From NCBI GenBank assembly GCA_964036665.1, contig OZ038532.1, forward strand, positions 13,844,537 through 13,908,536: a stretch of 64,000 bases of DNA. The letters run 5' to 3'. Position numbers and translations under genes: made by a program. Source of the DNA: Gordius sp. MW1 (lineage: Eukaryota; Nematomorpha; Gordioida; Gordea; Gordiidae). This document shows positions 270 to 63,232 of this stretch, in pieces; positions within the stretch are counted from its first letter, which is position 1, and the number at the start of each line of letters is the position of its first letter. Under the pieces are notes generated by a model. It did no database searches. It was not told the origin of the DNA and saw nothing but the letters and a program-made list of their open reading frames with translations.

Positions 270-287
270 AATAAAACGTTGTCTTTT

Positions 288-37800: not shown

Positions 37801-40800
37801 TATTTATACCTCAAAATTTTTCACATATTTTTCTTTGAACCGTATTCATCCGATGAAAGTTGTCGTAGACTTGGTTTCTATGATCCCAAGTAAAAATTTA
37901 TCAGAATCTGAAAACTATTACTTTGAAATCATAATCGCATAGAGCCATTTTCAAAAATTAAGCATCACGTTGCGATACAACAAACTAATCGCAACAATAA
38001 AACGTTGTCTTTTGTCAAAATGATAGTTCTCGCAGCTTAAAACCTCTTTTCGGAAGTCAATTGAGAAAAATAGGATTCTCAAATTGGCTTACTTTTATAT
38101 ATTTTTTTATGCTCTTTCACATAGAATCAAAAAAAATAAATATTTTTACCTTAAATTTTTTCACATATTTTTCTTTGAACCGTATTCATCCGTTGAAAGT
38201 TGTCGTTTTCAGACGTGGTTTCTAAGATCCCAAGTAAAATTTATCAGTGAAAACTATTACTTTGAAATCATGATCGCATAGAGCCATTTTCAAAAATTAA
38301 GCATCACGTTGCGAAACAACAAACTAATCGCAACAATAAAACGTTGTCTTTTGTCAAAATGATAGTTTTCGCAGCTTAAAACCTCTTTTCGGAAGTCAAT
38401 CGAGGATAATAGGATTCTCAAATTGGCTTACTTTTATATATTTTTTCATGCTCTTTCACATAGAATTGAAAAAAATAAATATTTTTACCTCAAAATTTTT
38501 CACATATTTTTCTTTGAACCGTATTCATCCGATGAAAGTTGTCGTTTTCAGACTTGGTTTCTATGATCCCAAGTAAAAATTTATCAGAATCTGAAAACTA
38601 TTACTTTGAAATCATGATCGCATAGAGCCATTTTCAAAAATTAAGCATCACGTTGCGATACAACAAACTAATCGCAACAATAAAACGTTGTCTTTTGTCA
38701 AAATGATAGTTCTCGCAGCTTAAAACCTCTTTGCGGAAGTCAATCGAGGATAATAGGATTCTCAAATTGCCTTACTTTTATATATTTTTTCATGCTCTTT
38801 CACATAGAATTGAAAAAAATAAATATTTTTACCTCAAAATTTTTCACATATTTTTCTTTGAACCGTATTCATCCGATGAAAGTTGTCGTTTTCAGACGTG
38901 GTTTCTATGATCCCAAGTAAAAATTTATCAGAATCTAAAAACTATTACTTTGAAATGATAATCGCATAGAGCAGTTTTCAAAAATTCAGCACTCACGTTG
39001 CGATACAACAAACTAATCACAACAATAAAACGTTGTCTTTTGTCAAAATGAATAGTTCTGGCAGCTTAAAACCTCTTTTCGGAAGTAAATCAAGGATAAT
39101 AGGATTCTCAAATTGGCTTACTTTTATATATTTCTTCATGCTCTTTCACATAGAATTGAAAAAATTAAATATTTTTACCTCAAAATTTTTCACATATATT
39201 TCTTTGAACCGTATTCATCCGATGAAAGTTTCCGTTTTCAGACGTGGTTTCTATGATCCCAAGTAAAAATTTATCAGAATCAGAGAAATGTTACTTTGAA
39301 ATCATGATCGCATAGTGCATTTTTGAAAAATTAAACACTCACGTTGCGATACAACAAACTAATCGCAACAATAAAACGTTGTCTTTTGTCAAAATGAATA
39401 GTTCTGGCAGCTTAAAACCTCTTTTCGGAAGTAAATCGAGGATAATAGGATTCTCAAATTGGCTTACTTTTATATATTTTTTCATGCACTTTCACATAGA
39501 ATCGAAAAAAATAAATATTTTTACTTCAAAAATTTTCACATATTTTTCTTTCAACCGTATGCATCCGATTAAAGTTGTCGTTTTCAGACGTGGTTTCGAT
39601 GATAAAAAGTAAAAATTTATCAGAATCAGAAAACTATTACTTTGAAATCATGATCGCATAGAGCCATTTTCAAAAATTAAGCATCACGTTGCGATACAAC
39701 AAACTAATCGCAACAATAAAACGTTGTCTTTTGTCAAAATGATAGTTCTCGCAGCTTAAAACCTCTTTGCGGAAGTCAATCGAGGATAATAGGATTCTCA
39801 AATTGCCTTACTTTTATATATTTTTTCATGCTCTTTCACATAGAATTGAAAAAAATAAATATTTTTACCTCAAAATTTTTCACATATTTTTCTTTGAACC
39901 GTATTCATCCGATGAAAGTTGTCGTTTTCAGACGTGGTTTCTATGATCCCAAGTAAAAATTTATCAGAATCTAAAAACTATTACTTTGAAATGATAATCG
40001 CATAGAGCAGTTTTCAAAAATTCAGCACTCACGTTGCGATACAACAAACTAATCACAACAATAAAACGTTGTCTTTTGTCAAAATGAATAGTTCTGGCAG
40101 CTTAAAACCTCTTTTCGGAAGTAAATCAAGGATAATAGGATTCTCAAATTGGCTTACTTTTATATATTTCTTCATGCTCTTTCACATAGAATTGAAAAAA
40201 TTAAATATTTTTACCTCAAAATTTTTCACATATATTTCTTTGAACCGTATTCATCCGATGAAAGTTTCCGTTTTCAGACGTGGTTTCTATGATCTCAAGT
40301 AAAAATTTATCAGAATCAGAGAAATGTTACTTTGAAATCATGATCGCATAGTGCATTTTTGAAAAATTAAACACTCACGTTGCGATACAACAAACTAATC
40401 GCAACAATAAAACGTTGTCTTTTGTCAAAATGAATAGTTCTGGCAGCTTAAAACCTCTTTTCGGAAGTAAATCGAGGATAATAGGATTCTCAAATTGGCT
40501 TACTTTTATATATTTTTTCATGCACTTTCACATAGAATCGAAAAAAATAAATATTTTTACTTCAAAAATTTTCACATATTTTTCTTTCAACCGTATGCAT
40601 CCGATTAAAGTTGTCGTTTTCAGACGTGGTTTCGATGATAAAAAGTAAAAATTTATCAGAATCAGAAAACTATTACTTTGAAATCATGATCGCATAGAGC
40701 CATTTTCAAAAATTAAGCATCACGTTGCGATACAACAAACTAATCGCAACAATAAAACGTTGTCTTTTGTCAAAATGATAGTTCTCGCAGCTTAAAACCT

Positions 40801-43297
40801 CTTTTCGGAAGTCAATCGAGGATAATAGGATTCTCAAATTGGCTTACTATTATATATTTTTTCATGCTCTTTCACATAGAATCGAAAAAAATAAATATTT
40901 TAACCTCAAAATTTTTCACATATTTTTCTTTGAACCGTATTCATCCGATGAAAGTTGATGTTTTCAGACGTGGTTTCTATGATAAAAATAAAAAATTTAT
41001 CAGAATCTAAAAACTACTACTTTAAAATCATGATCGCATAGTGCATTTTTGAAAAATTAAGCACTCACGTTGCGATCAAACTAATCGCAACAATACAACG
41101 TTGTCTTTTGTCAAAATGATAGTTCTCGCAGCTTAAAACCTCTTTTCGGAAGTCAATCGAGGATAATAGGATTCTCAAATTGGCTTACTTTTATATATTT
41201 TTTCATGCTCTTTCACATAGAATCGAAAAAAATAAATATTCTTACCTCAAAATTTTTCACATATTTTTCTTTGAAACGTATTAATCCGATAAAAGTTGTC
41301 GTTTTCAGACGTGGTTTCTATGATCCCAAGTAAAAATTTATCAGAATCAGAGAAATGTTACTTTGAAATCATGATCGCATAGGTCATTTTTGAAAAATTA
41401 AACACTCACGTTGCGATACAACAAACTAATCGCAACAATAAAACGTTGTCTTTTGTCAAAATGAATAGTTCTGGCAGCTTAAAACCTCTTTTCGGAAGTA
41501 AATCGAGGATAATAGGATTCTCAAATTGGCTTACTTTTATATATTTTTTCTTGCTCTTTCACATAGAATTGAAAAAAATAAATATTTTTACCTCAAAATT
41601 TTTCACATATTTTTCTTTGAACCGTATTCATCCGATGAAAGTTGTCGTTTTCAGACTTGGTTTCTATGATCCCAAGTAAAAATTTATCAGAATCTGAAAA
41701 CTATTACTTTGAAATCATGATCGCATAGAGCCATTTTCAAAAATTAAGCATCACGTTGCGATACAACAAACTAATCGCAACAATAAAACGTTGTCTTTTG
41801 TCAAAATGATAGTTCTCGCAGCTTAAAACCTCTTTTCGGAAGTCAATCGAGGATAATAGGATTCTCAAATTGGCTTACTTTTATATATTTTTTTATGCTC
41901 TTTCACATTGAATCAAAAAAAATAAATATTTTTACCTCAAAATTTTTCACATATTTTTCTTTGAACCGTATTCATCCGATGAAAGTTGTCGTTTTCAGAC
42001 GTGGTTTCTAAGATCCCAAGTAAAAATTTATCAGTGAAAACTATTACTTTGAAATCATGATCGCATAGAGCCATTTTCAAAAATTAAGCATCACGTTGCG
42101 ATACAACAAACTAATCGCAACAATAAAACGTTGTCTTTTGTCAAAATGATAGTTTTCGCAGCTTAAAACCTCTTTTCGGAAGTCAATCGAGGATAATAGG
42201 ATTTTCAAATTGGCTTACTTTTATATATTTTTTCATGCTCTTTCACATAGAATTGAAAAAAATAAATATTTTTACCTCAAAATTTTTCACATATTTTTCT
42301 TTGAACCGTATTCATCCGATGAAAGTTGTCGTTTTCAGACTTGGTTTCTATGATCCCAAGTAAAAATTTATCAGAATCTGAAAACTATTACTTTGAAATC
42401 ATGATCGCATAGAGCCATTTTCAAAAATTAAGCATCACGTTGCGATACAACAAACTAATCGCAACAATAAAACGTTGTCTTTTGTCAAAATGATAGTTCT
42501 CGCAGCTTAAAACCTCTTTTCGGAAGTCAATCGAGGATAATAGGATTCTCAAATTGGCTTACTTTTATATATTTTTTTATGCTCTTTCACATAGAATCAA
42601 AAAAAATAAATATTTTTACCTCAAAATTTTTCACATATTTTTCTTTGAACCGTATTCATCCGATGAAAGTTGTCGTTTTCAGACGTGGTTTCTAAGATCC
42701 CAAGTAAAATTTATCAGTGAAAACTATTACTTTGAAATCATGATCGCATAGAGCCATTTTCAAAAATTAAGCATCACGTTGCGAAACAACAAACTAATCG
42801 CAACAATAAAACGTTGTCTTTTGTCAAAATGATAGTTTTCGCAGCTTAAAACCTCTTTTCGGAAGTCAATCGAGGATAATAGGATTCTCAAATTGGCTTA
42901 CTTTTATATATTTTTTCATGCTCTTTCACATAGAATTGAAAAAAATAAATATTTTTACCTCAAAATTTTTCACATATTTTTCTTTGAACCGTATTCATCC
43001 GATGAAAGTTGTCGTTTTCAGACTTGGTTTCTATGATCCCAAGTAAAAATTTATCAGAATCTGAAAACTATTACTTTGAAATCATGATCGCATAGAGCCA
43101 TTTTCAAAAATTAAGCATCACGTTGCGATACAACAAACTAATCGCAACAATAAAACGTTGTCTTTTGTCAAAATGATAGTTCTCGCAGCTTAAAACCTCT
43201 TTTCGGAAGTCAATCGAGGATAATAGGATTCTCAAATTGGCTTACTTTTATATATTTTTTTATGCTCTTTCACATAGAATCAAAAAAAATAAATATT
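34894..43297 (+). repeat. 8.4-kb segmental duplication, copy 2
   Basis: The second copy of the 24582-32985 block. It carries the same internal 1,036-bp duplication (here starting near 38594), the AATTGAGAAAAATAGG monomer near 38058, GTCGTAGACTTGG near 37863, the CACATTGAATC variant near 41903, and GATTTTCAAATTGG near 42202. It is separated from copy 1 by 1,908 bp of the same satellite (32986-34893), which itself repeats neighbouring monomers at offsets 1,719 and 2,063. Confidence 0.9.
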
Positions 43298-43500
43298 TTT
43301 ACCTCAAAATTTTTCACATATTTTTCTTTGAACCGTATTCATCCGATGAAAGTTGTCGTTTTCAGACGTGGTTTCTAAGATCCCAAGTAAAAATTTATCA
43401 GTGAAAACTATTACTTTGAAATCATGATCGCATAGAGCCATTTTCATAAATTAAGCATCACGTTGCGATACAACAAACTAATCGCAACAATAAAACGTTG

Positions 43501-46500
43501 TCTTTTGTCAAAATGATAGTTCTCGCAGCTTAAAACCTCTTTGCGGAAGTCAATCGAGGATAATAGGATTCTCAAATTGCCTTACTTTTATATATTTTTT
43601 CATGCTCTTTCACATAGAATTGAAAAAAATAAATATTTTTACCTCAAAATTTTTCACATATTTTTCTTTGAACCGTATTCATCCGATGAAAGTTGTCGTT
43701 TTCAGACGTGGTTTCTATGATCCCAAGTAAAAATTTATCAGAATCTAAAAACTATTACTTTGAAATGATAATCGCATAGAGCAGTTTTCAAAAATTCAGC
43801 ACTCACGTTGCGATACAACAAACTAATCACAACAATAAAACGTTGTCTTTTGTCAAAATGAATAGTTCTGGCAGCTTAAAACCTCTTTTCGGAAGTAAAT
43901 CAAGGATAATAGGATTCTCAAATTGGCTTACTTTTATATATTTCTTCATGCTCTTTCACATAGAATTGAAAAAATTAAATATTTTTACCTCAAAATTTTT
44001 CACATATATTTCTTTGAACCGTATTCATCCGATGAAAGTTTTCGTTTTCAGACGTGGTTTCTATGATCCCAAGTAAAAATTTATCAGAATCAGAGAAATG
44101 TTACTTTGAAATCATGATCGCATAGTGCATTTTTGAAAAATTAAACACTCACGTTGCGATACAACAAACTAATCGCAACAATAAAACGTTGTCTTTTGTC
44201 AAAATGAATAGTTCTGGCAGCTTAAAACCTCTTTTCGGAAGTAAATCGAGGATAATAGGATTCTCAAATTGGCTTACTTTTATATATTTTTTCATGCACT
44301 TTCACATAGAATCGAAAAAAATAAATATTTTTACTTCAAAAATTTTCACATATTTTTCTTTCAACCGTATGCATCCGATTAAAGTTGTCGTTTTCAGACG
44401 TGGTTTCGATGATAAAAAGTAAAAATTTATCAGAATCAGAAAACTATTACTTTGAAATCATGATCGCATAGAGCCATTTTAAAAATTAAGCATCACGTTG
44501 CGATACAACAAACTAATCGCAACAATAAAACGTTGTCTTTTGTCAAAATGATAGTTCTCGCAGCTTAAAACCTCTTTTCGGAAGTCAATCGAGGATAATA
44601 GGATTCTCAAATTGGCTTACTTTTATATATTTTTTCATGCTCTTTCACATAGAATCGAAAAAAATAAATATTTTAACCTCAAAATTTTTCACATATTTTT
44701 CTTTGAACCGTATTCATCCGATGAAAGTTGATGTTTTCAGACGTGGTTTCTATGATAAAAATAAAAAATTTATCAGAATCTAAAAACTACTACTTTAAAA
44801 TCATGATCGCATAGTGCATTTTTGAAAAATTAAGCACTCACGTTGCGATCAAACTAATCGCAACAATACAACGTTGTCTTTTGTCAAAATGATAGTTCTC
44901 GCAGCTTAAAACCTCTTTTCGGAAGTCAATCGAGGATAATAGGATTCTCAAATTGGCTTACTTTTATATATTTTTTCATGCTCTTTCACATAGAATCGAA
45001 AAAAATAAATATTCTTACCTCAAAATTTTTCACATATTTTTCTTTGAAACGTATTAATCCGATAAAAGTTGTCGTTTTCAGACGTGGTTTCTATGATCCC
45101 AAGTAAAAATTTATCAGAATCAGAGAAATGTTACTTTGAAATCATGATCGCATAGAGCAGTTTTCAAAAATTCAGCACTCACGTTGCGATACAACAAACT
45201 AATCACAACAATAAAACGTTGTCTTTTGTCAAAATGAATAGTTCTGGCAGCTTAAAACCTCTTTTCGGAAGTCAATCGAGGATAATAGGATTCTCAAATT
45301 GGCTTACTTTTATATATTTCTTCATGCTCTTTCACATAGAATTGAAAAAATTAAATATTTTTACCTCAAAATTTTTCACATATATTTCTTTGAACCGTAT
45401 TTATCCGATGAAAGTTTTCGTTTTCAGACGTGGTTTCTATGATCCCAAGTAAAAATTTATCAGAATCAGAGAAATGTTACTTTGAAATCATGATCGCATA
45501 GTGCATTTTTGTAAAATTAAACACTCACGTTGCGATACAACAAACTAATCGCAACAATAAAACGTTGTCTTTTGTCAAAATGAATAGTTCTGGCAGCTTA
45601 AAACCTCTTTTCGGAAGTAAATCGAGGATAATAGGATTCTCAAATTGGCTTACTTTTATATATTTTTTCATGCACTTTCACATAGAATCGAAAAAAATTA
45701 ATATTTTTACTTCAAAAATTTTCACATATTTTTCTTTCAACCGTATGCATCCGATTAAAGTTGTCGTTTTCAGACGTGGTTTCGATGATAAAAAGTAAAA
45801 ATTTATCAGAATCAGAAAACTATTACTTTGAAATCATGATCGCATAGAGCCATTTTCAAAAATTAAGCATCACGTTGCGATACAACAAACTAATCGCAAC
45901 AATAAAACGTTGTCTTTTGTCAAAATGATAGTTCTCGCAGCTTAAAACCTCTTTTCGGAAGTCAATCGAGGATAATAGGATTCTTAAATTGGCTCACTTT
46001 TATATATTTTTTCATGCTCTTTCACATAGAATCGAAAAAAATAAATATTTATACCTCAAAATTTTTCACACATTTTTCTTTCAACCGTATGCATCCGATG
46101 AAAGTTGTCGTTTTCAGACGTGGTTTCGATGATAAAAAGTAAAAATTTATCAGAATCAGAAAACTATTACTTTAAAATCATGATCGCATAGTGCATTTTT
46201 GAAAAATTAAGCACTCACGTTGCGATACAACAAACTAAGCGCAACAATAAAACGTTGTCTTTTGTCAAAATGATTGTTCTCGCAGCTTAAAACCTCTTTT
46301 CGGAAGTCAATCAGGATAATAGGATTCTCAAATTGGCTTACTTTTATATATTCTTTCATGCTCTTTCACATAGAATGAAAAAAATAAATATTTTTACGTC
46401 AAAATTTTTCACATATTTTTCTTTCAACCGTATGCATCCGATGAAAGTTGTCGTTTTCAGACGTGGTTTCGATGAGAAAAAGTAAAAATTTATCAGAATC

Positions 46501-47520
46501 AGAAAACTATTACTTTGAAATCATGATCGCATAGAGCCATTTTCAAAAATTAAGCATCACGTTGCGATACAACAAACTAATCGCAACAATAAAACGTTGT
46601 CTTTTGTCAAAATCATAGTTCTCGCAGCTTAAAACCTCTTTTCGGAAGTCAATCGAGGATAATAGGATTCTCAAATTGGCTTACTTTTATATATTTTTTC
46701 ATGCTCTTTCACATAGAATTGAAAAAAATAAATATTCTTACCTCAAAATTTTTAACATATTTTTCTTTGAACCGTATTCATCCGATGAAAGTTGTCGTTT
46801 TCAGACGTGGTTTCTATGATCCCAAGTAAAAATTTATCAGAATCTAAAAACTACTACTTTAAAATCATGATCGCATAGTGCATTTTTGAAAAATTAAGCA
46901 ATCACGTTGCGATCAAACTAATCGCAACAATAAAACGTTGTCTTTTGTCAAAATGATAGTTCTCGCAGCTTAAAACCTCTTTTCGGAAGTCAATCGAGGA
47001 TAATAGGATTCTCAAATTGGCTTACTTTTATATATTTTCTCATGCTCTTTCACATAGAATTGAAAAAAATAAATATTCTTACCTCAAAATTTTTCACATA
47101 TTTTTCTTTGAAACGTATTCATCCGATGAAAGTTGTCGTTTTCAGACGTGGTTTCTATGATCCCAAGTAAAAATTTATCAGAATCAGAGAAATGTTACTT
47201 TGAAATCATGATCGCATAGGTCATTTTTGAAAAATTAAACACTCACGTTGCGATACAACAAACTAATCGCAACAATAAAACGTTGTCTTTTGTCAAAATG
47301 AATAGTTCTGGCAGCTTAAAACCTCTTTTCGGAAGTAAATCGAGGATAATAGGATTCTCAAATTGGCTTACTTTTATATATTTTTTCATGCTCTTTCACA
47401 TAGAATGAAAAAAATAAATATTTTTACGTCAAAATTTTTCATATAGTTTTCTTTCAACCGTATGCATCCGATGAAAGTTGTCGTTTTCAGACGTGGTTTC
47501 GATGATAAAAAGTAAAAATT
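43501..47520 (+). repeat. Block related to 57.3-61.3 kb (offset ~13.8 kb), copy 1
   Basis: Runs of rare markers reappear downstream at offsets of 13,810, then 13,463, then 13,805. The one-monomer changes of offset mean that single monomers were gained or lost between the copies. Shared markers include GAGCCATTTTAAAAATT near 44471, AATACAACGTTG, ACGTATTAATCCGATAAAAG, TTTTTGTAAAATTAAAC near 45509, ATTCTTAAATTGGCTCAC near 45981, ACTAAGCGCAAC near 46236, GATGAGAAAAAG and AAAATCATAG near 46611. It also holds its own 1,376-bp four-monomer duplication (43843 to 45219 and 44189 to 45565). Confidence 0.82.
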
Positions 47521-48652
47521 TATCAGAATCAGAAAACTATTACTTTGAAATCATGATCGCATAGAGCCATTTTCAAAAATTAAGCATCACGTTGCGATAC
47601 AACAAACTAATCGCAACAATAAAACGTTGTCTTTTGTCAAAATGATAGTTCGCGCAGCTTAAAACCTCTTTTCGGAAGTCAATCGAGGATAATAGGATTC
47701 TCAAATTGGCTTACTTTTATATATTTTTTCATGCTCTTTCACATAGAATTGAAAAAAATAAATATTCTTACTCAAAATTTTTCACATATTTTTCTTTGAA
47801 CCGTATTCATCCGATGAAAGTTGTCGTTTTCAGACGTGGTTTCTATGATCCCAAGTAAAAATTTATCAGAATCTAAAAACTACTACTTTAAAATCATGAT
47901 CGCATAGTGCATTTTTGAAAAATTAAGCACTCACGTTGCGATCAAACTAATCGCAACAATAAAACGTTGTCTTTTGTCAAAATGATAGTTCTCGCAGCTT
48001 AAAACCTCTTTTCGGAAGTCAATCGAGGATATCAAATTGGCTTACTTTTATATATTTTTTCATGCTCTTTCACATAGAATTGAAAAAAATAAATATTCTT
48101 ACCTCAAAATTTTTCACATATTTTTCTTTGAAACGTATTCATCCGATGAAGGTTGTCGTTTTCAGACGTGGTTTCTATGATCCCAAGTAAAAATTTATCA
48201 GAATCAGAGAAATGTTACTTTGAAATCATGATCGCATAGGTCATTTTTGAAAAATTAAACACTCACGTTGCGATACAACAAACTAATCGCAACAATAAAA
48301 CGTTGTCTTTTGTCAAAATGAATAGTTCTGGCAGCTTAAAACCTCTTTTCGGAAGTAAATCGAGGATAATAGGATTCTCAAATTGGCTTACTTTTATATA
48401 TTTTTTCATGCTCTTTCACATAGAATTGAAAAAAATAAATATTTATACCTCAAAATTTTTCACATATTTTTCTTTGAACCGTATTCATCCGATGAAAGTT
48501 GTCGTAGACTTGGTTTCTATGATCCCAAGTAAAAATTTATCAGAATCTGAAAACTATTACTTTGAAATCATAATCGCATAGAGCCATTTTCAAAAATTAA
48601 GCATCACGTTGCGATACAACAAACTAATCGCAACAATAAAATGTTGTCTTTT

Positions 48653-48660
48653 GTCAAAAT
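48653..48660 (+). repeat. Left target-site duplication (GTCAAAAT)
   Basis: The 8 bases GTCAAAAT directly precede the element. They occur once at this position in uninterrupted monomers, so the second copy at 49805-49812 was made by the insertion. Eight bases is the hAT target duplication length. Confidence 0.93.
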
Positions 48661-48670
48661 TAGTGTTTCG
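48661..48670 (+). repeat. Left terminal inverted repeat
   Basis: TAGTGTTTCG, matching the reverse complement of the right end (TAGTGATGCG) at 8 of 10 positions. Just inside, the left end goes directly into CTCGT pentamers, whereas the right end has an additional GGAAAAACCGAG segment. The left terminus may therefore have been shortened or rearranged. Confidence 0.82.
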
Positions 48671-48810
48671 ATCTCGTCTCGTCTCGGTCTCGAATACAAA
48701 ATCTCGTCTCGTCTCGGGAGCGATTAGGAAAATCTCGATCTCGTCTCGTCTCGGTCTAGAAAAATCTCGGTCTCGTCTCGTCTCGACGAGAATTCTCGTC
48801 TCGTCTCGAC
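48671..48810 (+). repeat. Left subterminal CTCGT pentamer arm
   Basis: Repeated TCTCG/GTCTCG pentamers in runs of two to four, separated by short A-rich spacers such as AATACAAAA, GGAGCGATTAGGAAAA and TAGAAAAA. It ends at CTCGAC, where the AT-rich core begins. Subterminal repeats in hAT elements commonly act as transposase binding sites; that role is inferred here. The chance open frame through this arm (48609-48866) translates only the pentamer and is not a gene. Confidence 0.85.
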
Positions 48811-49643
48811 TTTTAAAAAAAAATATATACGGAATAAAAATTTCTCCTATTTTATTAAAAATATAAATAAGTGTTCAAAAATCCAAATGGCAAATTTTAT
48901 ATTTTTGGAAAAACTTTAATACGCAAACTTTTTAAAGATTTAGCGGGACACGACATCTCATTGACAATATAAAGATATGAATTAACTCATAAAGATAACA
49001 TTTTCTATAAAAAGTGCAGACTAAAAAAACTATAAATAAATTTGAAATAAGATTAAATTTTATTGTTCTAGCAAATTATAATATTTGCATCAAATTCACT
49101 GTGTCTGTCAACTATAAATGGACTTCGAAAATTATAAGTTCGCTTATAGTTGATATAGTTGCATAAGTGAGCAAAATGAGACCCTTTATTAACCTTTGCT
49201 AATGATTCAAAGTAGACCTTAACATATTTAAGGCAAACGTTTAAGTCCATTAATATAACCATCATCAGTTATAGCCCATAGTGTTTATTGCATGTTTATG
49301 CGAGTGACATTTAATGATGTTATTATTATTTACAGAATTGATAACTAGTTGCAGAAATTAAAACGTTGTAAAACAACAATAAAAGCAGCATTATTATAGA
49401 ATTAAGAACATAAGGTTTTAAACTTTAAATTAAAGAGTACGTATTTAAATGTATGACAAAAATCAACCATACTTAGGTAAATGATTGCCAAATTTTATTT
49501 TTTTTGCAAAAATATATAATATTTACTACACTTGTGAATTTTTTTAATATTAAATATATTCCATACATATTGATTTACACTTAATACCTTAAATGTAAAT
49601 TAAAATACACAATAATTTACTAAAATCTAACGATCAATAAAAA
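48811..49643. other. AT-rich core of the hAT-type element
   Basis: 833 bp of AT-rich sequence unrelated to the satellite, with many stops in all frames. It holds poly-A/T runs and AATAAA-like words but no transposase catalytic region. The only frame worth mentioning is the minus-strand one at 49068-49265, listed separately. It probably represents filler or scrambled internal sequence of a deletion derivative. Confidence 0.75.
49068..49265 (-). pseudogene. Possible relic of a BED-type zinc finger (hAT transposase N-terminus)
   Basis: A 65-codon minus-strand frame from ATG to TAG. Residues about 15-22 read VKVYFESL, which resembles the VWKYF-x-L start of BED fingers. About 12 residues later comes HFAHLCNYINYK, resembling the A-x-C-x-x-C-x-x-x-x-SYK part, but the first cysteine is missing, as if about two residues were lost. 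A final RSPFIVDRH roughly sits where the L-x-x-H pair should be. BED fingers open many hAT transposases, so a decayed start of the autonomous parent gene would fit the host element. The similarity is weak and judged by eye. It could equally be a chance frame, and it cannot encode a working protein. Confidence 0.28.
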
Positions 49644-49794
49644 GTCGAGATCTCGCCGAGAAAATCTCGTATCGTCTCGTCTCGACATCAAAATTCTCGT
49701 CTCGATCTCGACTCCATTTTTCAAATTCTCGTCTCGTCTCGTCTCGGTTTTTCGAGACGAGACGAGACGAGACCGAGATTTTTCTCGGTTTTTC
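49644..49794 (-). repeat. Right subterminal CGAGA pentamer arm
   Basis: Mirror image of the left arm: CTCGT and CGAGA pentamers, including a local inverted pair (CTCGTCTCGTCTCGG, TTTTT, CGAGACGAGACGAGAC) that could fold into a strong hairpin at about 49728-49775. A 27-bp stretch at 49758-49784 is the exact inverted counterpart of 48759-48785, the longest perfect inverted match I found between the two arms. Overlapping minus-strand frames here encode only low-complexity repeats. Confidence 0.85.
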
Positions 49795-49804
49795 CGCATC
49801 ACTA
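49795..49804 (-). repeat. Right terminal inverted repeat
   Basis: CGCATCACTA on the plus strand, read outward-in as TAGTGATGCG. A TAGTG or CAGTG start is common at hAT ends. It abuts the target duplication with no spare base. Confidence 0.85.
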
Positions 49805-49812
49805 GTCAAAAT
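49805..49812 (+). repeat. Right target-site duplication (GTCAAAAT)
   Basis: A perfect repeat of 48653-48660. It is followed by GATAGTTCTCGCAGC, which is the normal continuation of a B-type monomer. The perfect match suggests that the insertion is young, although array homogenisation could also preserve it. Confidence 0.93.
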
Positions 49813-52533
49813 GATAGTTCTCGCAGCTTAAAACCTCTTTTCGGAAGTCAATTGAGAAAAATAGGATTCTCAAATTGGCTTACTTTTATATATTTTTTTA
49901 TGCTCTTTCACATAGAATCAAAAAAAATAAATATTTTTACCTCAAAATTTTTCACATATTTTTCTTTGAACCGTATTCATCCGATGAAAGTTGTCGTAGA
50001 CTTGGTTTCTATGATCCCAAGTAAAAATTTATCAGAATCTGAAAACTATTACTTTGAAATCATAATCGCATAGAGCCATTTTCAAAAATTAAGCATCACG
50101 TTGCGATACAACAAACTAATCGCAACAATAAAACGTTGTCTTTTGTCAAAATGATAGTTTTCGCAGCTTAAAACCTCTTTTCGGAAGTCAATCGAGGATA
50201 ATAGGATTCTCAAATTGGCTTACTTTTTTATATTTTTTCATGCTCTTTCACATAGAATTGAAAAAAATAAATATTTTTACCTCAAAATTTTTCACATATT
50301 TTTCTTTGAACCGTATTCATCCGATGAAAGTTGTCGTTTTCAGACTTGGTTTCTATGATCCCAAGTAAAAATTTATCAGAATCTGAAAACTATTACTTTG
50401 AAATCATGATCGCATAGAGCCATTTTCAAAAATTAAGCATCACGTTGCGATACAACAAACTAATCGCAACAATAAAACGTTGTCTTTTGTCAAAATGATA
50501 GTTCTCGCAGCTTAAAACCTCTTTTCGGAAGTCAATCGAGGATAATAGGATTCTCAAATTGGCTTACTTTTATATATTTTTTTATGCTCTTTCACATAGA
50601 ATCAAAAAAAATAAATATTTTTACCTCAAAATTTTTCACATATTTTTCTTTGAACCGTATTCATCCGATGAAAGTTGTCGTTTTCAGACGTGGTTTCTAA
50701 GATCCCAAGTAAAAATTTATCAGTGAAAACTATTACTTTGAAATCATGATCGCATAGAGCCATTTTCAAAAATTAAGCATCACGTTGCGATACAACAAAC
50801 TAATCGCAACAATAAAACGTTGTCTTTTGTCAAAATGATAGTTCTCGCAGCTTAAAACCTCTTTTCGGAAGTCAATCGAGGATAATAGGATTCTCAAATT
50901 GGCTTACTTTTATATATTTTTTCATGCTCTTTCACATAGAATTGAAAAAAATAAATATTCTTACCTCAAAATTTTTCACATATTTTTCTTTGAAACGTAT
51001 TCATCCGATGAAAGTTGTCGTTTTCAGACGTGGTTTCTATGATCCCAAGTAAAAATTTATCAGAATCAGAGAAATGTTACTTTGAAATCATGATCGCATA
51101 GGTCATTTTTAAAAATTAAACACTCACGTTGCGATACAACAAACTAATCGCAACAATAAAACGTTGTCTTTTGTCAAAATGAATAGTTCTGGCAGCTTAA
51201 AACCTCTTTTCGGAAGTAAATCGAGGATAATAGGATTCTCAAATTGGCTTACTTTTATATATTTTTTCATGCTCTTTCACATAGAATGAAAAAAATAAAT
51301 ATTTTTACGTCAAAATTTTTCATATAGTTTTCTTTCAACCGTATGCATCCGATGAAAGTTGTCGTTTTCAGACGTGGTTTCGATGATAAAAAGTAAAAAT
51401 TTATCAGAATCAGAAAACTATTACTTTGAAATCATGATCGCATAGAGCCATTTTCAAAAATTAAGCATCACGTTGCGATACAACAAACTAATCGCAACAA
51501 TAAAACGTTGTCTTTTGTCAAAATGATAGTTCTCGCAGCTTAAAACCTCTTTTCGGAAGTCAATCGAGGATAATAGGATTCTCAAATTGGCTTACTTTTA
51601 TATATTTTTTCATGCTCTTTCACATAGAATTGAAAAAAATAAATATTCTTACTCAAAATTTTTCACATATTTTTCTTTGAACCGTATTCATCCGATGAAA
51701 GTTGTCGTTTTCAGACGTGGTTTCTATGATCCCAAGTAAAAATTTATCAGAATCTAAAAACTACTACTTTAAAATCATGATCGCATAGTGCATTTTTGAA
51801 AAATTAAGCACTCACGTTGCGATCAAACTAATCGCAACAATAAAACGTTGTCTTTTGTCAAAATGATAGTTCTCGCAGCTTAAAACCTCTTTTCGGAAGT
51901 CAATCGAGGATATCAAATTGGCTTACTTTTATATATTTTTTCATGCTCTTTCACATAGAATTGAAAAAAATAAATATTCTTACCTCAAAATTTTTCACAT
52001 ATTTTTCTTTGAAACGTATTCATCCGATGAAGGTTGTCGTTTTCAGACGTGGTTTCTATGATCCCAAGTAAAAATTTATCAGAATCAGAGAAATGTTACT
52101 TTGAAATCATGATCGCATAGGTCATTTTTGAAAAATTAAACACTCACGTTGCGATACAACAAACTAATCGCAACAATAAAACTTTGTCTTTTGTCAAAAT
52201 GAATAGTTCTGGCAGCTTAAAACCTCTTTTCGGAAGTAAATCGAGGATAATAGGATTCTCAAATTGGCTTACTTTTATATATTTTTTCATGCTCTTTCAC
52301 ATAGAATTGAAAAAAATAAATATTTATACCTCAAAATTTTTCACATATTTTTCTTTGAACCGTATTCATCCGATGAAAGTTGTCGTAGACTTGGTTTCTA
52401 TGATCCCAAGTAAAAATTTATCAGAATCTGAAAACTATTACTTTGAAATCATAATCGCATAGAGCCATTTTCAAAAATTAAGCATCACGTTGCGATACAA
52501 CAAACTAATCGCAACAATAAAATGTTGTCTTTT

Positions 52534-52541
52534 GTCAAAAT
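52534..52541 (+). other. Empty insertion site, paralogue 1
   Basis: An uninterrupted GTCAAAAT at the position equivalent to the hAT insertion. The flanks carry the same private variants as the filled site: AAAATGTTGTC (T instead of C) a few bases upstream, and GTCAATTGAGAAAAATAGG downstream. The filled copy is longer by exactly 1,152 bp (1,144 element plus 8 duplication), which confirms the element boundaries. Confidence 0.92.
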
Positions 52542-55500
52542 GATAGTTCTCGCAGCTTAAAACCTCTTTTCGGAAGTCAATTGAGAAAAATAGGATTCTC
52601 AAATTGGCTTACTTTTATATATTTTTTTATGCTCTTTCACATAGAATCAAAAAAAATAAATATTTTTACCTCAAAATTTTTCACATATTTTTCTTTGAAC
52701 CGTATTCATCCGATGAAAGTTGTCGTAGACTTGGTTTCTATGATCCCAAGTAAAAATTTATCAGAATCTGAAAACTATTACTTTGAAATCATAATCGCAT
52801 AGAGCCATTTTCAAAAATTAAGCATCACGTTGCGATACAACAAACTAATCGCAACAATAAAACGTTGTCTTTTGTCAAAATGATAGTTTTCGCAGCTTAA
52901 AACCTCTTTTCGGAAGTCAATCGAGGATAATAGGATTCCCAAATTGGCTTACTTTTATATATTTTTTCATGCTCTTTCACATAGAATTGAAAAAAATAAA
53001 TATTTTTACCTCAAAATTTTTCACATATTTTTCTTTGAACCGTATTCATCCGATGAAAGTTGTCGTTTTCAGACTTGGTTTCTATGATCCCAAGTAAAAA
53101 TTTATCAGAATCTGAAAACTATTACTTTGAAATCATGATCGCATAGAGCCATTTTCAAAAATTAAGCATCACGTTGCGATACAACAAACTAATCGCAACA
53201 ATAAAACGTTGTCTTTTGTCAAAATGATAGTTCTCGCAGCTTAAAACCTCTTTTCGGAAGTCAATCGAGGATAATAGGATTCTCAAATTGGCTTACTTTT
53301 ATATATTTTTTTATGCTCTTTCACATAGAATCAAAAAAAATAAATATTTTTACCTCAAAATTTTTCACATATTTTTCTTTGAACCGTATTCATCCGATGA
53401 AAGTTGTCGTTTTCAGACGTGGTTTCTAAGATCCCAAGTAAAAATTTATCAGTGAAAACTATTACTTTGAAATCATGATCGCATAGAGCCATTTTCAAAA
53501 ATTAAGCATCACGTTGCGATACAACAAACTAATCGCAACAATAAAACGTTGTCTTTTGTCAAAATGATAGTTCTCGCAGCTTAAAACCTCTTTGCGGAAG
53601 TCAATCGAGGATAATAGGATTCTCAAATTGCCTTACTTTTATATATTTTTTCATGCTCTTTCACATAGAATTGAAAAAAATAAATATTTTTACCTCAAAA
53701 TTTTTCACATATTTTTCTTTGAACCGTATTCATCCGATGAAAGTTGTCGTTTTCAGACGTGGTTTCTATGATCCCAAGTAAAAATTTATCAGAATCTAAA
53801 AACTATTACTTTGAAATGATAATCGCATAGAGCAGTTTTCAAAAATTCAGCACTCACGTTGCGATACAACAAACTAATCGCAACAATAAAACGTTGTCTT
53901 TTGTCAAAATGATAGTTTTCGCAGCTTAAAACCTCTTTTCGGAAGTCAATCGAGGATAATAGGATTCTCAAATTGGCTTACTTTTTTATATTTTTTCATG
54001 CTCTTTCACATAGAATTGAAAAAAATAAATATTTTTACCTCAAAATTTTTCACATATTTTTCTTTGAACCGTATTCATCCGATGAAAGTTGTCGTTTTCA
54101 GACTTGGTGTCTATGATCCCAAGTAAAAATTTATCAGAATCTGAAAACTATTACTTTGAAATCATGATCGCATAGAGCCATTTTCAAAAATTAAGCATCA
54201 CGTTGCGATACAACAAACTAATCGCAACAATAAAACGTTGTCTTTTGTCAAAATGATAGTTCTCGCAGCTTAAAACCTCTTTTCGGAAGTCAATCGAGGA
54301 TAATAGGATTCTCAAATTGGCTTACTTTTATATATTTTTTTATGCTCTTTCACATAGAATCAAAAAAAATAAATATTTTTACCTCAAAATTTTTCACATA
54401 TTTTTCTTTGAACCGTATTCATCCGATGAAAGTTGTCGTTTTCAGACGTGGTTTCTAAGATCCCAAGTAAAAATTTATCAGTGAAAACTATTACTTTGAA
54501 ATCATGATCGCATAGAGCCATTTTCAAAAATTAAGCATCACGTTGCGATACAACAAACTAATCGCAACAATAAAACGTTGTCTTTTGTCAAAATGATAGT
54601 TCTCGCAGCTTAAAACCTCTTTTCGGAAGTCAATCGAGGATAATAGGATTCTCAAATTGGCTTACTTTTATATATTTTTTCATGCTCTTTCACATAGAAT
54701 TGAAAAAAATAAATATTCTTACCTCAAAATTTTTCACATATTTTTCTTTGAAACGTATTCATCCGATGAAAGTTGTCGTTTTCAGACGTGGTTTCTATGA
54801 TCCCAAGTAAAAATTTATCAGAATCAGAGAAATGTTACTTTGAAATCATGATCGCATAGGTCATTTTTGAAAAATTAAACACTCACGTTGCGATACAACA
54901 AACTAATCGCAACAATAAAACGTTGTCTTTTGTCAAAATGAATAGTTCTGGCAGCTTAAAACCTCTTTTCGGAAGTAAATCGAGGATAATAGGATTCTCA
55001 AATTGGCTTACTTTTATATATTTTTTCATGCTCTTTCACATAGAATGAAAAAAATAAATATTTTTACGTCAAAATTTTTCATATAGTTTTCTTTCAACCG
55101 TATGCATCCGATGAAAGTTGTCGTTTTCAGACGTGGTTTCGATGATAAAAAGTAAAAATTTATCAGAATCAGAAAACTATTACTTTGAAATCATGATCGC
55201 ATAGAGCCATTTTCAAAAATTAAGCATCACGTTGCGATACAACAAACTAATCGCAACAATAAAACGTTGTCTTTTGTCAAAATGATAGTTCTCGCAGCTT
55301 AAAACCTCTTTTCGGAAGTCAATCGAGGATAATAGGATTCTCAAATTGGCTTACTTTTATATATTTTTTCATGCTCTTTCACATAGAATTGAAAAAAATA
55401 AATATTCTTACTCAAAATTTTTCACATATTTTTCTTTGAACCGTATTCATCCGATGAAAGTTGTCGTTTTCAGACGTGGTTTCTATGATCCCAAGTAAAA

Positions 55501-56292
55501 ATTTATCAGAATCTAAAAACTACTACTTTAAAATCATGATCGCATAGTGCATTTTTGAAAAATTAAGCACTCACGTTGCGATCAAACTAATCGCAACAAT
55601 AAAACGTTGTCTTTTGTCAAAATGATAGTTCTCGCAGCTTAAAACCTCTTTTCGGAAGTCAATCGAGGATATCAAATTGGCTTACTTTTATATATTTTTT
55701 CATGCTCTTTCACATAGAATTGAAAAAAATAAATATTCTTACCTCAAAATTTTTCACATATTTTTCTTTGAAACGTATTCATCCGATGAAGGTTGTCGTT
55801 TTCAGACGTGGTTTCTATGATCCCAAGTAAAAATTTATCAGAATCAGAGAAATGTTACTTTGAAATCATGATCGCATAGGTCATTTTTGAAAAATTAAAC
55901 ACTCACGTTGCGATACAACAAACTAATCGCAACAATAAAACGTTGTCTTTTGTCAAAATGAATAGTTCTGGCAGCTTAAAACCTCTTTTCGGAAGTAAAT
56001 CGAGGATAATAGGATTCTCAAATTGGCTTACTTTTATATATTTTTTCATGCTCTTTCACATAGAATTGAAAAAAATAAATATTTATACCTCAAAATTTTT
56101 CACATATTTTTCTTTGAACCGTATTCATCCGATGAAAGTTGTCGTAGACTTGGTTTCTATGATCCCAAGTAAAAATTTATCAGAATCTGAAAACTATTAC
56201 TTTGAAATCATAATCGCATAGAGCCATTTTCAAAAATTAAGCATCACGTTGCGATACAACAAACTAATCGCAACAATAAAATGTTGTCTTTT

Positions 56293-56300
56293 GTCAAAAT
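56293..56300 (+). other. Empty insertion site, paralogue 2
   Basis: The second unfilled sister site, 3,759 bp from the first, with the same upstream AAAATGTTGTC and downstream AATTGAGAAAAATAGG markers. Only one of the three sister copies carries the element, so the copies used to make the 3,759-bp duplication lacked it. Confidence 0.92.
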
Positions 56301-57637
56301 GATAGTTCTCGCAGCTTAAAACCTCTTTTCGGAAGTCAATTGAGAAAAATAGGATTCTCAAATTGGCTTACTTTTATATATTTTTTTATGCTCTTTCACA
56401 TAGAATCAAAAAAAATAAATATTTTTACCTCAAAATTTTTCACATATTTTTCTTTGAACCGTATTCATCCGATGAAAGTTGTCGTAGACTTGGTTTCTAT
56501 GATCCCAAGTAAAAATTTATCAGAATCTGAAAACTATTACTTTGAAATCATAATCGCATAGAGCCATTTTCAAAAATTAAGCATCACGTTGCGATACAAC
56601 AAACTAATCGCAACAATAAAACGTTGTCTTTTGTCAAAATGATAGTTTTCGCAGCTTAAAACCTCTTTTCGGAAGTCAATCGAGGATAATAGGATTCCCA
56701 AATTGGCTTACTTTTATATATTTTTTCATGCTCTTTCACATAGAATTGAAAAAAATAAATATTTTTACCTCAAAATTTTTCACATATTTTTCTTTGAACC
56801 GTATTCATCCGATGAAAGTTGTCGTTTTCAGACTTGGTTTCTATGATCCCAAGTAAAAATTTATCAGAATCTGAAAACTATTACTTTGAAATCATGATCG
56901 CATAGAGCCATTTTCAAAAATTAAGCATCACGTTGCGATACAACAAACTAATCGCAACAATAAAACGTTGTCTTTTGTCAAAATGATAGTTCTCGCAGCT
57001 TAAAACCTCTTTTCGGAAGTCAATCGAGGATAATAGGATTCTCAAATTGGCTTACTTTTATATATTTTTTTATGCTCTTTCACATAGAATCAAAAAAAAT
57101 AAATATTTTTACCTCAAAATTTTTCACATATTTTTCTTTGAACCGTATTCATCCGATGAAAGTTGTCGTTTTCAGACGTGGTTTCTAAGATCCCAAGTAA
57201 AAATTTATCAGTGAAAACTATTACTTTGAAATCATGATCGCATAGAGCCATTTTCAAAAATTAAGCATCACGTTGCGATACAACAAACTAATCGCAACAA
57301 TAAAACGTTGTCTTTTGTCAAAATGATAGTTCTCGCAGCTTAAAACCTCTTTGCGGAAGTCAATCGAGGATAATAGGATTCTCAAATTGCCTTACTTTTA
57401 TATATTTTTTCATGCTCTTTCACATAGAATTGAAAAAAATAAATATTTTTACCTCAAAATTTTTCACATATTTTTCTTTGAACCGTATTCATCCGATGAA
57501 AGTTGTCGTTTTCAGACGTGGTTTCTATGATCCCAAGTAAAAATTTATCAGAATCTAAAAACTATTACTTTGAAATGATAATCGCATAGAGCAGTTTTCA
57601 AAAATTCAGCACTCACGTTGCGATACAACAAACTAAT

Positions 57638-60600
57638 CACAACAATAAAACGTTGTCTTTTGTCAAAATGATAGTTCTCGCAGCTTAAAACCTCTTTTCG
57701 GAAGTAAATCGAGGATAATAGGATTCTCAAATTGGCTTACTTTTATATATTTTTTCATGCACTTTCACATAGAATCGAAAAAAATAAATATTTTTACTTC
57801 AAAAATTTTCACATATTTTTCTTTCAACCGTATGCATCCGATTAAAGTTGTCGTTTTCAGACGTGGTTTCGATGATAAAAAGTAAAAATTTATCAGAATC
57901 AGAAAACTATTACTTTGAAATCATGATCGCATAGAGCCATTTTAAAAATTAAGCATCACGTTGCGATACAACAAACTAATCGCAACAATAAAACGTTGTC
58001 TTTTGTCAAAATGATAGTTCTCGCAGCTTAAAACCTCTTTTCGGAAGTCAATCGAGGATAATAGGATTCTCAAATTGGCTTACTTTTATATATTTTTTCA
58101 TGCTCTTTCACATAGAATCGAAAAAAATAAATATTTTAACCTCAAAATTTTTCACATATTTTTCTTTGAACCGTATTCATCCGATGAAAGTTGATGTTTT
58201 CAGACGTGGTTTCTATGATAAAAATAAAAAATTTATCAGAATCTAAAAACTACTACTTTAAAATCATGATCGCATAGTGCATTTTTGAAAAATTAAGCAC
58301 TCACGTTGCGATCAAACTAATCGCAACAATACAACGTTGTCTTTTGTCAAAATGATAGTTCTCGCAGCTTAAAACCTCTTTTCGGAAGTCAATCGAGGAT
58401 AATAGGATTCTCAAATTGGCTTACTTTTATATATTTTTTCATGCTCTTTCACATAGAATCGAAAAAAATAAATATTCTTACCTCAAAATTTTTCACATAT
58501 TTTTCTTTGAAACGTATTAATCCGATAAAAGTTGTCGTTTTCAGACGTGGTTTCTATGATCCCAAGTAAAAATTTATCAGAATCAGAGAAATGTTACTTT
58601 GAAATCATGATCGCATAGAGCAGTTTTCAAAAATTAAGCATCACGTTGCGATACAACAAACTAATCGCAACAATAAAACGTTGTCTTTTGTCAAAATGAT
58701 AGTTTTCGCAGCTTAAAACCTCTTTTCGGAAGTCAATCGAGGATAATAGGATTCTCAAATTGGCTTACTTTTATATATTTTTTCATGCTCTTTCACATAG
58801 AATTGAAAAAAATAAATATTTTTACCTCAAAATTTTTCACATATTTTTCTTTGAACCGTATTCATCCGATGAAAGTTGTCGTTTTCAGACTTGGTTTCTA
58901 TGATCCCAAGTAAAAATTTATCAAAATCTGAAAACTACTACTTTGAAATCATGATCGCATAGAGCCATTTTCAAAAATTAAGCATCACGTTGCGATACAA
59001 CAAACTAATCGCAACAATAAAACGTTGTCTTTTGTCAAAATGATAGTTCTCGCAGCTTAAAACCTCTTTTCGGAAGTCAATCGAGGATAATAGGATTCTC
59101 AAATTGGCTTACTTTTATATATTTTTTTATGCTCTTTCACATAGAATCAAAAAAGATAAATATTTTTACCTCAAAATTTTTCACATATTTTTCTTTGAAC
59201 CCTATTCATCCGATGAAAGTTTTCGTTTTCAGACGTGGTTTCTATGATCCCAAGTAAAAATTTATCAGAATCAGAGAAATGTTACTTTGAAATCATGATC
59301 GCATAGTGCATTTTTGTAAAATTAAACACTCACGTTGCGATACAACAAACTAATCGCAACAATAAAACGTTGTCTTTTGTCAAAATGAATAGTTCTGGCA
59401 GCTTAAAACCTCTTTTCGGAAGTAAGTCGAGGATAATAGGATTCTCAAATTGGCTTACTTTTATATATTTTTTCATGCACTTTCACATAGAATCGAAAAA
59501 AATAAATATTTTTACTTCAAAAATTTTCACATATTTTTCTTTCAACCGTATGCATCCGATTAAAGTTGTCGTTTTCAGACGTGGTTTCGATGATAAAAAG
59601 TAAAAATTTATCAGAATCAGAAAACTATTACTTTGAAATCATGATCGCATAGAGCCATTTTCAAAAATTAAGCATCACGTTGCGATACAACAAACTAATC
59701 GCAACAATAAAACGTTGTCTTTTGTCAAAATGATAGTTCTCGCAGCTTAAAACCTCTTTTCGGAAGTCAATCGAGGATAATAGGATTCTTAAATTGGCTC
59801 ACTTTTATATATTTTTTCATGCTCTTTCACATAGAATCGAAAAAAATAAATATTTATACCTCAAAATTTTTCACACATTTTTCTTTCAACCGTATGCATC
59901 CGATGAAAGTTGTCGTTTTCAGACGTGGTTTCGATGATAAAAAGTAAAAATTTATCAGAATCAGAAAACTATTACTTTAAAATCATGATCGCATAGTGCA
60001 TTTTTGAAAAATTAAGCACTCACGTTGCGATACAACAAACTAAGCGCAACAATAAAACGTTGTCTTTTGTCAAAATGATTGTTCTCGCAGCTTAAAACCT
60101 CTTTTCGGAAGTCAATCAGGATAATAGGATTCTCAAATTGGCTTACTTTTATATATTCTTTCATGCTCTTTCACATAGAATGAAAAAAATAAATATTTTT
60201 ACGTCAAAATTTTTCACATATTTTTCTTTCAACCGTATGCATCCGATGAAAGTTGTCGTTTTCAGACGTGGTTTCGATGAGAAAAAGTAAAAATTTATCA
60301 GAATCAGAAAACTATTACTTTGAAATCATGATCGCATAGAGCCATTTTCAAAAATTAAGCATCACGTTGCGATACAACAAACTAATCGCAACAATAAAAC
60401 GTTGTCTTTTGTCAAAATCATAGTTCTCGCAGCTTAAAACCTCTTTTCGGAAGTCAATCGAGGATAATAGGATTCTCAAATTGGCTTACTTTTATATATT
60501 TTTTCATGCTCTTTCACATAGAATTGAAAAAAATAAATATTCTTACCTCAAAATTTTTCACATATTTTTCTTTGAACCGTATTCATCCGATGAAAGTTGT

Positions 60601-61279
60601 CGTTTTCAGACGTGGTTTCTATGATCCCAAGTAAAAATTTATCAGAATCTAAAAACTACTACTTTAAAATCATGATCGCATAGTGCATTTTTGAAAAATT
60701 AAGCAATCACGTTGCGATCAAACTAATCGCAACAATAAAACGTTGTCTTTTGTCAAAATGATAGTTCTCGCAGCTTAAAACCTCTTTTCGGAAGTCAATC
60801 GAGGATAATAGGATTCTCAAATTGGCTTACTTTTATATATTTTTTCATGCTCTTTCACATAGAATTAAAAAAAATAAATATTCTTACCTCAAAATTTTTC
60901 ACATATTTTTCTTTGAAACGTATTCATCCGATGAAAGTTGTCGTTTTCAGACGTGGTTTCTATGATCCCAAGTAAAAATTTATCAGAATCAGAGAAATGT
61001 TACTTTGAAATCATGATCGCATAGGTCATTTTTGAAAAATTAAACACTCACGTTGCGATACAACAAACTAATCGCAACAATAAAACGTTGTCTTTTGTCA
61101 AAATGAATAGTTCTGGCAGCTTAAAACCTCTTTTCGGAAGTAAATCGAGGATAATAGGATTCTCAAATTGGCTTACTTTTATATATTTTTTCATGCTCTT
61201 TCACATAGAATGAAAAAAATAAATATTTTTACGTCAAAATTTTTCATATAGTTTTCTTTCAACCGTATGCATCCGATGA
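57638..61279 (+). repeat. Block related to 44.2-47.5 kb, copy 2
   Basis: This stretch reproduces the rare markers of the 44-47.5 kb block in the same order. It contains clear chimeric points. Near 58617-58640, GAGCAGTTTTCAAAAATT switches to AAGCATCACG instead of CAGCACTCACG. At 59205-59216, CCCTATTCATCC (a 34.0-kb-type left half) joins GAAAGTTTTCG (a 45.4-kb-type right half). Such joins inside monomers at matching phase are what homologous unequal exchange would leave. Confidence 0.78.
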
Positions 61280-63232
61280 AAGTTGTCGTTTTCAGACGTG
61301 GTTTCGATGATAAAAAGTAAAAATTTATCAGAATCAGAAAACTATTACTTTGAAATCATGATCGCATAGAGCCATTTTCAAAAATTAAGCATCACGTTGC
61401 GATACAACAAACTAATCGCAACAATAAAACGTTGTCTTTTGTCAAAATGATAGTTCTCGCAGCTTAAAACCTCTTTTCGGAAGTCAATCGAGGATAATAG
61501 GATTCTCAAATTGGCTCACTTTTATATATTTTTTCATGCTCTTTCACATAGAATCGAAAAAAATAAATATTTATACCTCAAAATTTTTCACACATTTTTC
61601 TTTCAACCGTATGCATCCGATGAAAGTTGTCGTTTTCAGACGTGGTTTCGATGATAAAAAGTAAAAATTTATCAGAATCAGAAAACTATTACTTTAAAAT
61701 CATGATCGCATAGTGCATTTTTGAAAAATTAAGCACTCACGTTGCGATACAACAAACTAAGCGCAACAATAAAACGTTGTCTTTTGTCAAAATGATTGTT
61801 CTCGCAGCTTAAAACCTCTTTTCGGAAGTCAATCAGGATAATAGGATTCTCAAATTGGCTTACTTTTATATATTCTTTCATGCTCTTTCACATAGAATGA
61901 AAAAAATAAATATTTTTACGTCAAAATTTTTCACATATTTTTCTTTCAACCGTATGCATCCGATGAAAGTTGTCGTTTTCAGACGTGGTTTCGATGAGAA
62001 AAAGTAAAAATTTATCAGAATCAGAAAACTATTACTTTGAAATCATGATCGCATAGAGCCATTTTCAAAAATTAAGCATCACGTTGCGATACAACAAACT
62101 AATCGCAACAATAAAACGTTGTCTTTTGTCAAAATCATAGTTCTCGCAGCTTAAAACCTCTTTTCGGAAGTCAATCGAGGATAATAGGATTCTCAAATTG
62201 GCTTACTTTTATATATTTTTTCATGCTCTTTCACATAGAATTGAAAAAAATAAATATTCTTACCTCAAAATTTTTCACATATTTTTCTTTGAACCGTATT
62301 CATCCGATGAAAGTTGTCGTTTTCAGACGTGGTTTCTATGATCCCAAGTAAAAATTTATCAGAATCTAAAAACTACTACTTTAAAATCATGATCGCATAG
62401 TGCATTTTTGAAAAATTAAGCAATCACGTTGCGATCAAACTAATCGCAACAATAAAACGTTGTCTTTTGTCAAAATGATAGTTCTCGCAGCTTAAAACCT
62501 CTTTTCGGAAGTCAATCGAGGATAATAGGATTCTCAAATTGGCTTACTTTTATATATTTTTTCATGCTCTTTCACATAGAATTAAAAAAAATAAATATTC
62601 TTACCTCAAAATTTTTCACATATTTTTCTTTGAAACGTATTCATCCGATGAAAGTTGTCGTTTTCAGACGTGGTTTCTATGATCCCAAGTAAAAATTTAT
62701 CAGAATCAGAGAAATGTTACTTTGAAATCATGATCGCATAGGTCATTTTTGAAAAATTAAACACTCACGTTGCGATACAACAAACTAATCGCAACAATAA
62801 AACGTTGTCTTTTGTCAAAATGAATAGTTCTGGCAGCTTAAAACCTCTTTTCGGAAGTAAATCGAGGATAATAGGATTCTCAAATTGGCTTACTTTTATA
62901 TATTTTTTCATGCTCTTTCACATAGAATGAAAAAAATAAATATTTTTACGTCAAAATTTTTCATATAGTTTTCTTTCAACCGTATGCATCCGATGAAAGT
63001 TGTCGTTTTCAGACGTGGTTTCGATGATAAAAAGTAAAAATTTATCAGAATCAGAAAACTATTACTTTGAAATCATGATCGCATAGAGCCATTTTCAAAA
63101 ATTAAGCATCACGTTGCGATACAACAAACTAATCGCAACAATAAAACGTTGTCTTTTGTCAAAATGATAGTTCTCGCAGCTTAAAACCTCTTTTCGGAAG
63201 TCAATCGAGGATAATAGGATTCTCAAATTGGC
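59563..63232 (+). repeat. 1,717-bp five-monomer tandem duplication
   Basis: The units are about 59563-61279 and 61280-62996, with matching continuing to about 63232. Paired markers are AAAATCATAG (near 60416 and 62133), ACTAAGCGCAAC, GTCAATCAGGATAATAGG, GATGAGAAAAAG, AAGCAATCACG, GAATTAAAAAAAATAAATATTC, and GCTCACTTTTATAT (59799 and 61516). One difference is ATTCTTAAATTGG near 59786 against ATTCTCAAATTGG near 61503. A related single copy lies at 45.8-47.5 kb (offset 13,805). Confidence 0.87.

Follow-up and report, generated by a model that had tools for sequence, protein, structure and literature searches.

Introduction

Among the described hAT systems closest to the element reported here is maize Ds2, described with Ac termini around an unrelated interior, 8-bp duplications and hundreds of relatives vs. 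very few Ac-like ones (PMC3260210). Short derivatives are also described for BuT2 in Drosophila willistoni, where 24 MITE-like copies of 532–927 bp retain about 94–128 bp of both ends (PMC3942097). For Hermes, an 8-bp nTnnnnAn target and BED domains which read the subterminal repeats are reported (PMC10368747).

Here, we analyzed a window of 64,000 nt of Gordius sp. MW1 (GCA_964036665.1, OZ038532.1:13,844,537–13,908,536, forward strand), placed on contig C6 of a genome searched as 211.8 Mb in 12 contigs. Its single insertion resembles Ds2 in combining autonomous-type termini, an unrelated interior, 8-bp duplications and hundreds of relatives, but it resides in an animal genome, its ends are TCTCG/CGAGA arrays and terminal identity extends over only ~165 bp; furthermore, and unlike in Ac/Ds, the transposase gene is open in two autonomous copies. 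As in BuT2, we found short hAT derivatives with both ends kept and with duplications varying by copy, here however 1,144 bp long and at hundreds of places, compared to 24 copies of 532–927 bp. Features shared with Hermes are a hAT transposase with a BED domain, 8-bp nTnnnnAn duplications and subterminal repeats, which are 4-bp AAGT/AAGC repeats in Hermes, whereas a dense 5-bp TCTCG array is found here. Of 15 papers matching one of four short end strings, the 10 listed concern, judged by title, other subjects.

Results

With one satellite monomer as probe, 48653–49804 was the sole uncovered stretch of the 64 kb (gaps of at least 15 bases), in line with the initial annotation, which had called the insert the only non-satellite DNA of the window. 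It had also described an exact 8-bp duplication, GTCAAAAT, around 1,144 bp of foreign DNA, TAGTG ends with 8 of 10 terminal bases alike and a site of the type nTnnnnAn; positions, length and count were reproduced, and GTCAAAAT conforms to the pattern (Table 1). Removal of the insert and one GTCAAAAT yields the empty site TTTTGTCAAAATGATA, and since this site occurs in the satellite array itself, the second GTCAAAAT is a duplication and not simply part of the next monomer. The element ends are TAGTGTTTCG (left) and TAGTGATGCG (right, reverse complement), with little likeness past the first 10 bases. Terminal inverted repeats of hAT elements are short and start (C/T)A-G-G-like, and the window element carries ends of this kind. 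Among stop-to-stop stretches above 50 codons, the longest in the element comprises 71 codons.

Table 1. Positions of the insertion, its parts and its long relatives (window coordinates unless a locus is named)
Feature	Position	Strand	Remark
Host array of ~344-bp satellite	1..64000	+	all monomers found on + strand
Target site duplication, left copy	48653..48660	.	GTCAAAAT
Non-autonomous hAT element, 1,144 bp	48661..49804	+	without long ORF
Left arm	48661..48827	+	TIR TAGTGTTTCG, then 18 TCTCG and 1 CGAGA; 92.8% to autonomous left 167 bp
Filler, 813 bp	48828..49640	.	without stretch shared with autonomous element (blastn, E 1e-3); ~82% to L039 relatives
Internal-deletion junction at shared TCA	49463..49465	.	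R2 has ~560 bp more there
Right arm	49641..49804	-	reverse complement starts TAGTGATGCGG; 95.7% to copy B right 164 bp
Target site duplication, right copy	49805..49812	.	GTCAAAAT
Autonomous element, 3,352 bp (copy A)	L040:1158-4509		duplication TAAATTGC
Autonomous element, 3,367 bp (copy B)	L040:5073-8439		duplication AACCTAAT
Third long element, 3,595 bp	L044:1146-4740 (C8)		duplication GTAATTCC

Including the right arm with 12 TCTCG and 7 CGAGA (plus strand), the element holds 38 of these pentamers; 500 first-order shuffles averaged 3.0 and never exceeded 9. The pentamers cover 190 of 331 arm bases and are absent from element positions 168–980. Between dependent and autonomous arms we counted 19 substitutions, of which the motif, chosen after the sequence had been seen, takes 0/12 in the left and 1/7 in the right arm (p=1.3e-6). 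Because just one of the 19 differences affects the motif, the array points to candidate transposase-binding sites; the pentamer could likewise have stayed uniform through exchange among repeat units.

The initial annotation had assigned the insert to the hAT superfamily and had looked to an autonomous relative with a hAT transposase and CGAGA arms for confirmation. Such an element was found in the same genome, sharing ends, arms and 8-bp duplications with the window element (terminal identity 40/40 bp right and 29/30 bp left). Two copies, inverted to each other in convergent orientation and 563 bp apart, occupy C6:5,653,157–5,660,438 within locus L040 (C6:5,652,000–5,661,500). Their alignment has 3,352 identities in 3,367 columns and the other 15 columns are all gaps, so that no substitution separates the copies; they differ by gaps in the right arm which add up to 15 bp and in total to whole 5-bp units. 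Both carry the same 573-codon open frame, which in copy A, together with an upstream exon and one predicted 209-bp intron (GTAAGT...CATCAG), gives a predicted protein of 638 residues (L040:1557–1814 and 2024–3682).

Domain searches with the transposase recovered Dimer_Tnp_hAT (E=1e-22), a hAT-like RNase-H domain (E=7e-7) and zf-BED (E=5e-9). Among solved structures, Hermes comes closest (E=4e-12), with similarity limited to residues 275–564 of the 573 searched. In this comparison, TIDGWT and PAERLFS lie opposite TIDLWT and ASERTFS of Hermes, the first with just 1.6 bits; these Hermes segments hold catalytic residues. A genome search with the transposase gave 80 protein matches (76 of 1,769 candidates scored), among which the two L040 copies alone are full-length, 100% identical and free of stops, and the copy on C8, at 97% identity, has 3 stops. 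C-terminal pieces with stops make up many of the remaining matches. Dozens of such pieces (about residues 484–573) are 67–85% identical, and since some C-terminal pieces lie near family ends, they probably represent a second class of deletion derivatives, in this case gene-bearing. Fourteen loci around hAT matches (L040–L053) were inspected: the partner element is present in L040 and L044, and L050 and L052 hold only dependent copies beside other hAT genes. Loci L009–L038, picked by domain score, were rejected as partners, with at most 4 TCTCG and 4 CGAGA each and the arms absent.

A DNA search with the 1,144-bp element yielded 3,008 candidates at first look, and the best 40 were scored. Every one of these spans element positions 1–1144; 30 including the window copy score as identical over the full length, five lie one score step lower, read as one substitution, and five show length differences. 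At up to 2 mismatches, the 27-bp pattern of the left end occurs at 853 and that of the right end at 1,246 genome places, the reversed control of either at 0. On contig C1, 64 left and 86 right ends are listed as exact matches. Of these left ends, 45 can be joined to a listed right end no more than 12 kb away, at spans of 1,083–1,169 bp (30 pairs), 1,313–1,938 bp (14) and 4,042 bp (one). The remaining 19 left and 41 right ends are without partner among the exact matches listed, and thus many copies are broken or diverged. If the 30 and five best exact-length copies among the best 40 of 3,008 candidates represent the youngest group, this group averages 1.2e-4 substitutions per site; as a rough guide, and for this group only, this would correspond to an age of ~12,000–42,000 generations at an assumed 1e-8 to 3e-9 per site. 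The family appears to be new and recently active, of a hAT kind already known.

Both flanks were read for 61 non-autonomous copies, namely the best 40, one 1,148-bp copy in L050 and 20 of the 45 C1 pairs. An exact 8-bp duplication flanks 51 of them (36/40 best-scoring, 15/20 on C1) and, with all three long copies, 54 of 64 overall. Fixed boundaries and a constant duplication length had been anticipated for further copies: the boundaries held in the best 40 and the 8-bp length, at the same boundaries, in those 51, but two copies have an exact 6-bp duplication (L008, TACACA; L050, TAAATA) and eight have neither (L083, L085, L107, L121, L131, L141, L153, L155). Two of these eight can be accounted for by an inversion between them (see below), and among the other six, L153 resembles an 8-bp duplication with two changed bases. 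By eye, L145/L146 (C1:20,976,981) shows one copy inserted into another member, a few bases in from the left end of the latter (TAGT-GTTTTGAT-CTCG).

Target preference was analyzed in the 54 exact duplications, oriented by element and compared with outer-flank composition (uncorrected p-values). T2 (25/54, p=0.016) and A7 (28/54, p=0.0015) are enriched, as are A4 (35/54, p=5e-7), T5 (29/54, p=6e-4) and C8 (22/54, p=1e-4), and G1 is not significant relative to the outer flanks (15/54, p=0.063); A4, T5, G1 and C8, four of the six position tests, were picked after the counts had been seen. The full nTnnnnAn pattern occurs in 13/54 duplications (p=0.002), and the preferred target is nTnATnAn. The Buster group of hAT elements uses a central-TA target, nnnTAnnn. 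This type was rejected, with T4 in 5/54 and A5 in 12/54 and a centre of A4 T5. The nTnnnnAn target and the Hermes match agree with the Ac group of hAT.

The satellite makes up about 10–12% of the assembly (11.6% estimated from 61,759 matches, scaled by detection of 158 of the ~183 monomers in the window). Elsewhere, its first listed block lies at C2:8.47–9.03 Mb. With 0–1 mismatch in 16 bases, 8 of 51 empty sites match the satellite, and shuffled sites, compared with 20 kb of array, gave no satellite match. A preference for the satellite is not shown, since 8/51 vs. the estimated genome share gives p=0.38. Insertions of this hAT family recur in the satellite and are not unique landmarks. The proposed use of the insert as an anchor for mapping or assembly was not upheld: 30 copies, the window's included, are 100% identical, and the 8 matching empty sites fall in the satellite of the window.

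Locus L039 contains older relatives of 1.6–1.8 kb whose filler is about 82% like that of the window element. One of them, R2, measures 1,601 bp and has ~560 bp extra between element positions 805 and 803. R2, with a 6-bp duplication ATCGCT found by eye, and a window-type copy (TTGACACC) are both inserted in the older relative R1. The deletion junction (38 bp, up to 2 mismatches) occurs at 348 genome places, with 0 in the control, the undeleted left breakpoint (39 bp, up to 3 mismatches) at 314, and the extra ~560-bp piece at at least 40 places (best 40 of 1,348 candidates). Among these best 40, nine pieces of the longer form score alike (715 bits, query 3–570), and because they share one score, they suggest that the undeleted form went through a second burst, likewise recent.

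Discussion

We consider it highly probable (about 96%) that the 1,144 bp are one non-autonomous hAT insertion, moved by the transposase of a sister element and derived from an internal deletion in a filler-bearing line. This reading builds on what can be seen in the sequence, i.e., the anatomy, the copies and their duplications, the open-gene partner, the shared deletion junction and the conserved arms. The transposase of the 3.35-kb sister element would bind the TCTCG/CGAGA arrays and TAGTG termini via its BED finger and core, excise the element and insert it into a satellite monomer cut with an 8-bp stagger, and host repair of the gaps would then create the GTCAAAAT duplication. The element would retain just the ends which the enzyme needs, around unrelated filler. 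A longer and already non-autonomous relative gave rise to the 1,144-bp form by one internal deletion, at a TCA microhomology of 3 bp; this form then spread widely and recently and could be active at present. By analogy to the Hermes repeats, we infer that the TCTCG array may be read by the BED domain. The dense array, as a clear candidate binding motif, could be compared with the Hermes BED model. Together with the unchanged dependent copies and a partner element that shares their ends and has its transposase gene open, it makes up an unusually complete natural hAT system in one animal genome, with nearly all parts present.

That the element arose from the autonomous element itself by mere internal deletion (like Ds-del) would fit the ~165 bp at either terminus, which match that element, but is very unlikely: beyond motif-rich arm pieces, the middle 813 bp gave no match to the autonomous element (blastn, E 1e-3) and no tblastn match to the transposase; a 22-residue tblastn match between transposase and R1 (E=0.054) is too weak to use. 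Moreover, relatives with the same filler and ~560 bp more exist, which is why the deletion is placed within the filler-bearing line and the 1,144-bp form is not regarded as a deletion product of the autonomous element. Likewise, the L040 copies do not appear to be the direct parent of the window element, since the arms differ by 4–7% and the filler is unrelated. For the filler, neither an R1 ORF nor two frames with X at stops gave a Pfam match. On this point other DNA, such as an integrated virus, a retrotransposon or a gene fragment captured without the action of a transposase, could be considered, but is extremely improbable, given that ends and 8-bp duplications are fixed and that a partner carrying a transposase shares these ends. 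The 30 identical copies, several of them in the same satellite, could further have been spread by segmental or satellite duplication instead of transposition. Among the copies read, however, the flanking 8-mers vary from copy to copy, and because they differ, identical copies represent independent insertions; for those copies duplication is refuted, and for the family it is very unlikely.

MITEs are short, usually under ~800 bp, non-coding and of high copy number. The window element is non-coding and highly repeated, but 1,144 bp long, and is better named non-autonomous and Ds2-like than a MITE.

Maize Mu-killer is a hairpin-RNA silencer locus. The convergent transposase copies on C6 might, by read-through into a perfect ~3.3-kb RNA hairpin, form a self-made silencer of this type, which we regard as unlikely. 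If true, the hairpin could silence the transposase and bring to a halt the burst behind the hundreds of dependent copies.

On C3, two 100% identical inverted copies are located at 17,313,072–17,314,215 (+) and 17,332,554–17,333,697 (-) (L083–L086), each without a duplication of its own. Flipping the 18,338 bp between them yields two exact 8-bp pairs, GTTGGGCG/GTTGGGCG and GAAGCCAT/GAAGCCAT. The same pattern, duplications swapped between copies in inverted orientation, has been used for Galileo inversions in Drosophila (PMC2775673). The pair would accordingly mark an 18.3-kb inversion or an assembly flip, an assembly error at two identical copies being possible. These copies would show how identical inverted copies can rearrange chromosomes. 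Among the other contigs, C1 opens with CCCTAA repeats (TTAGGG telomere) and C12 comprises 14,798 bp with mitochondrial reading frames.
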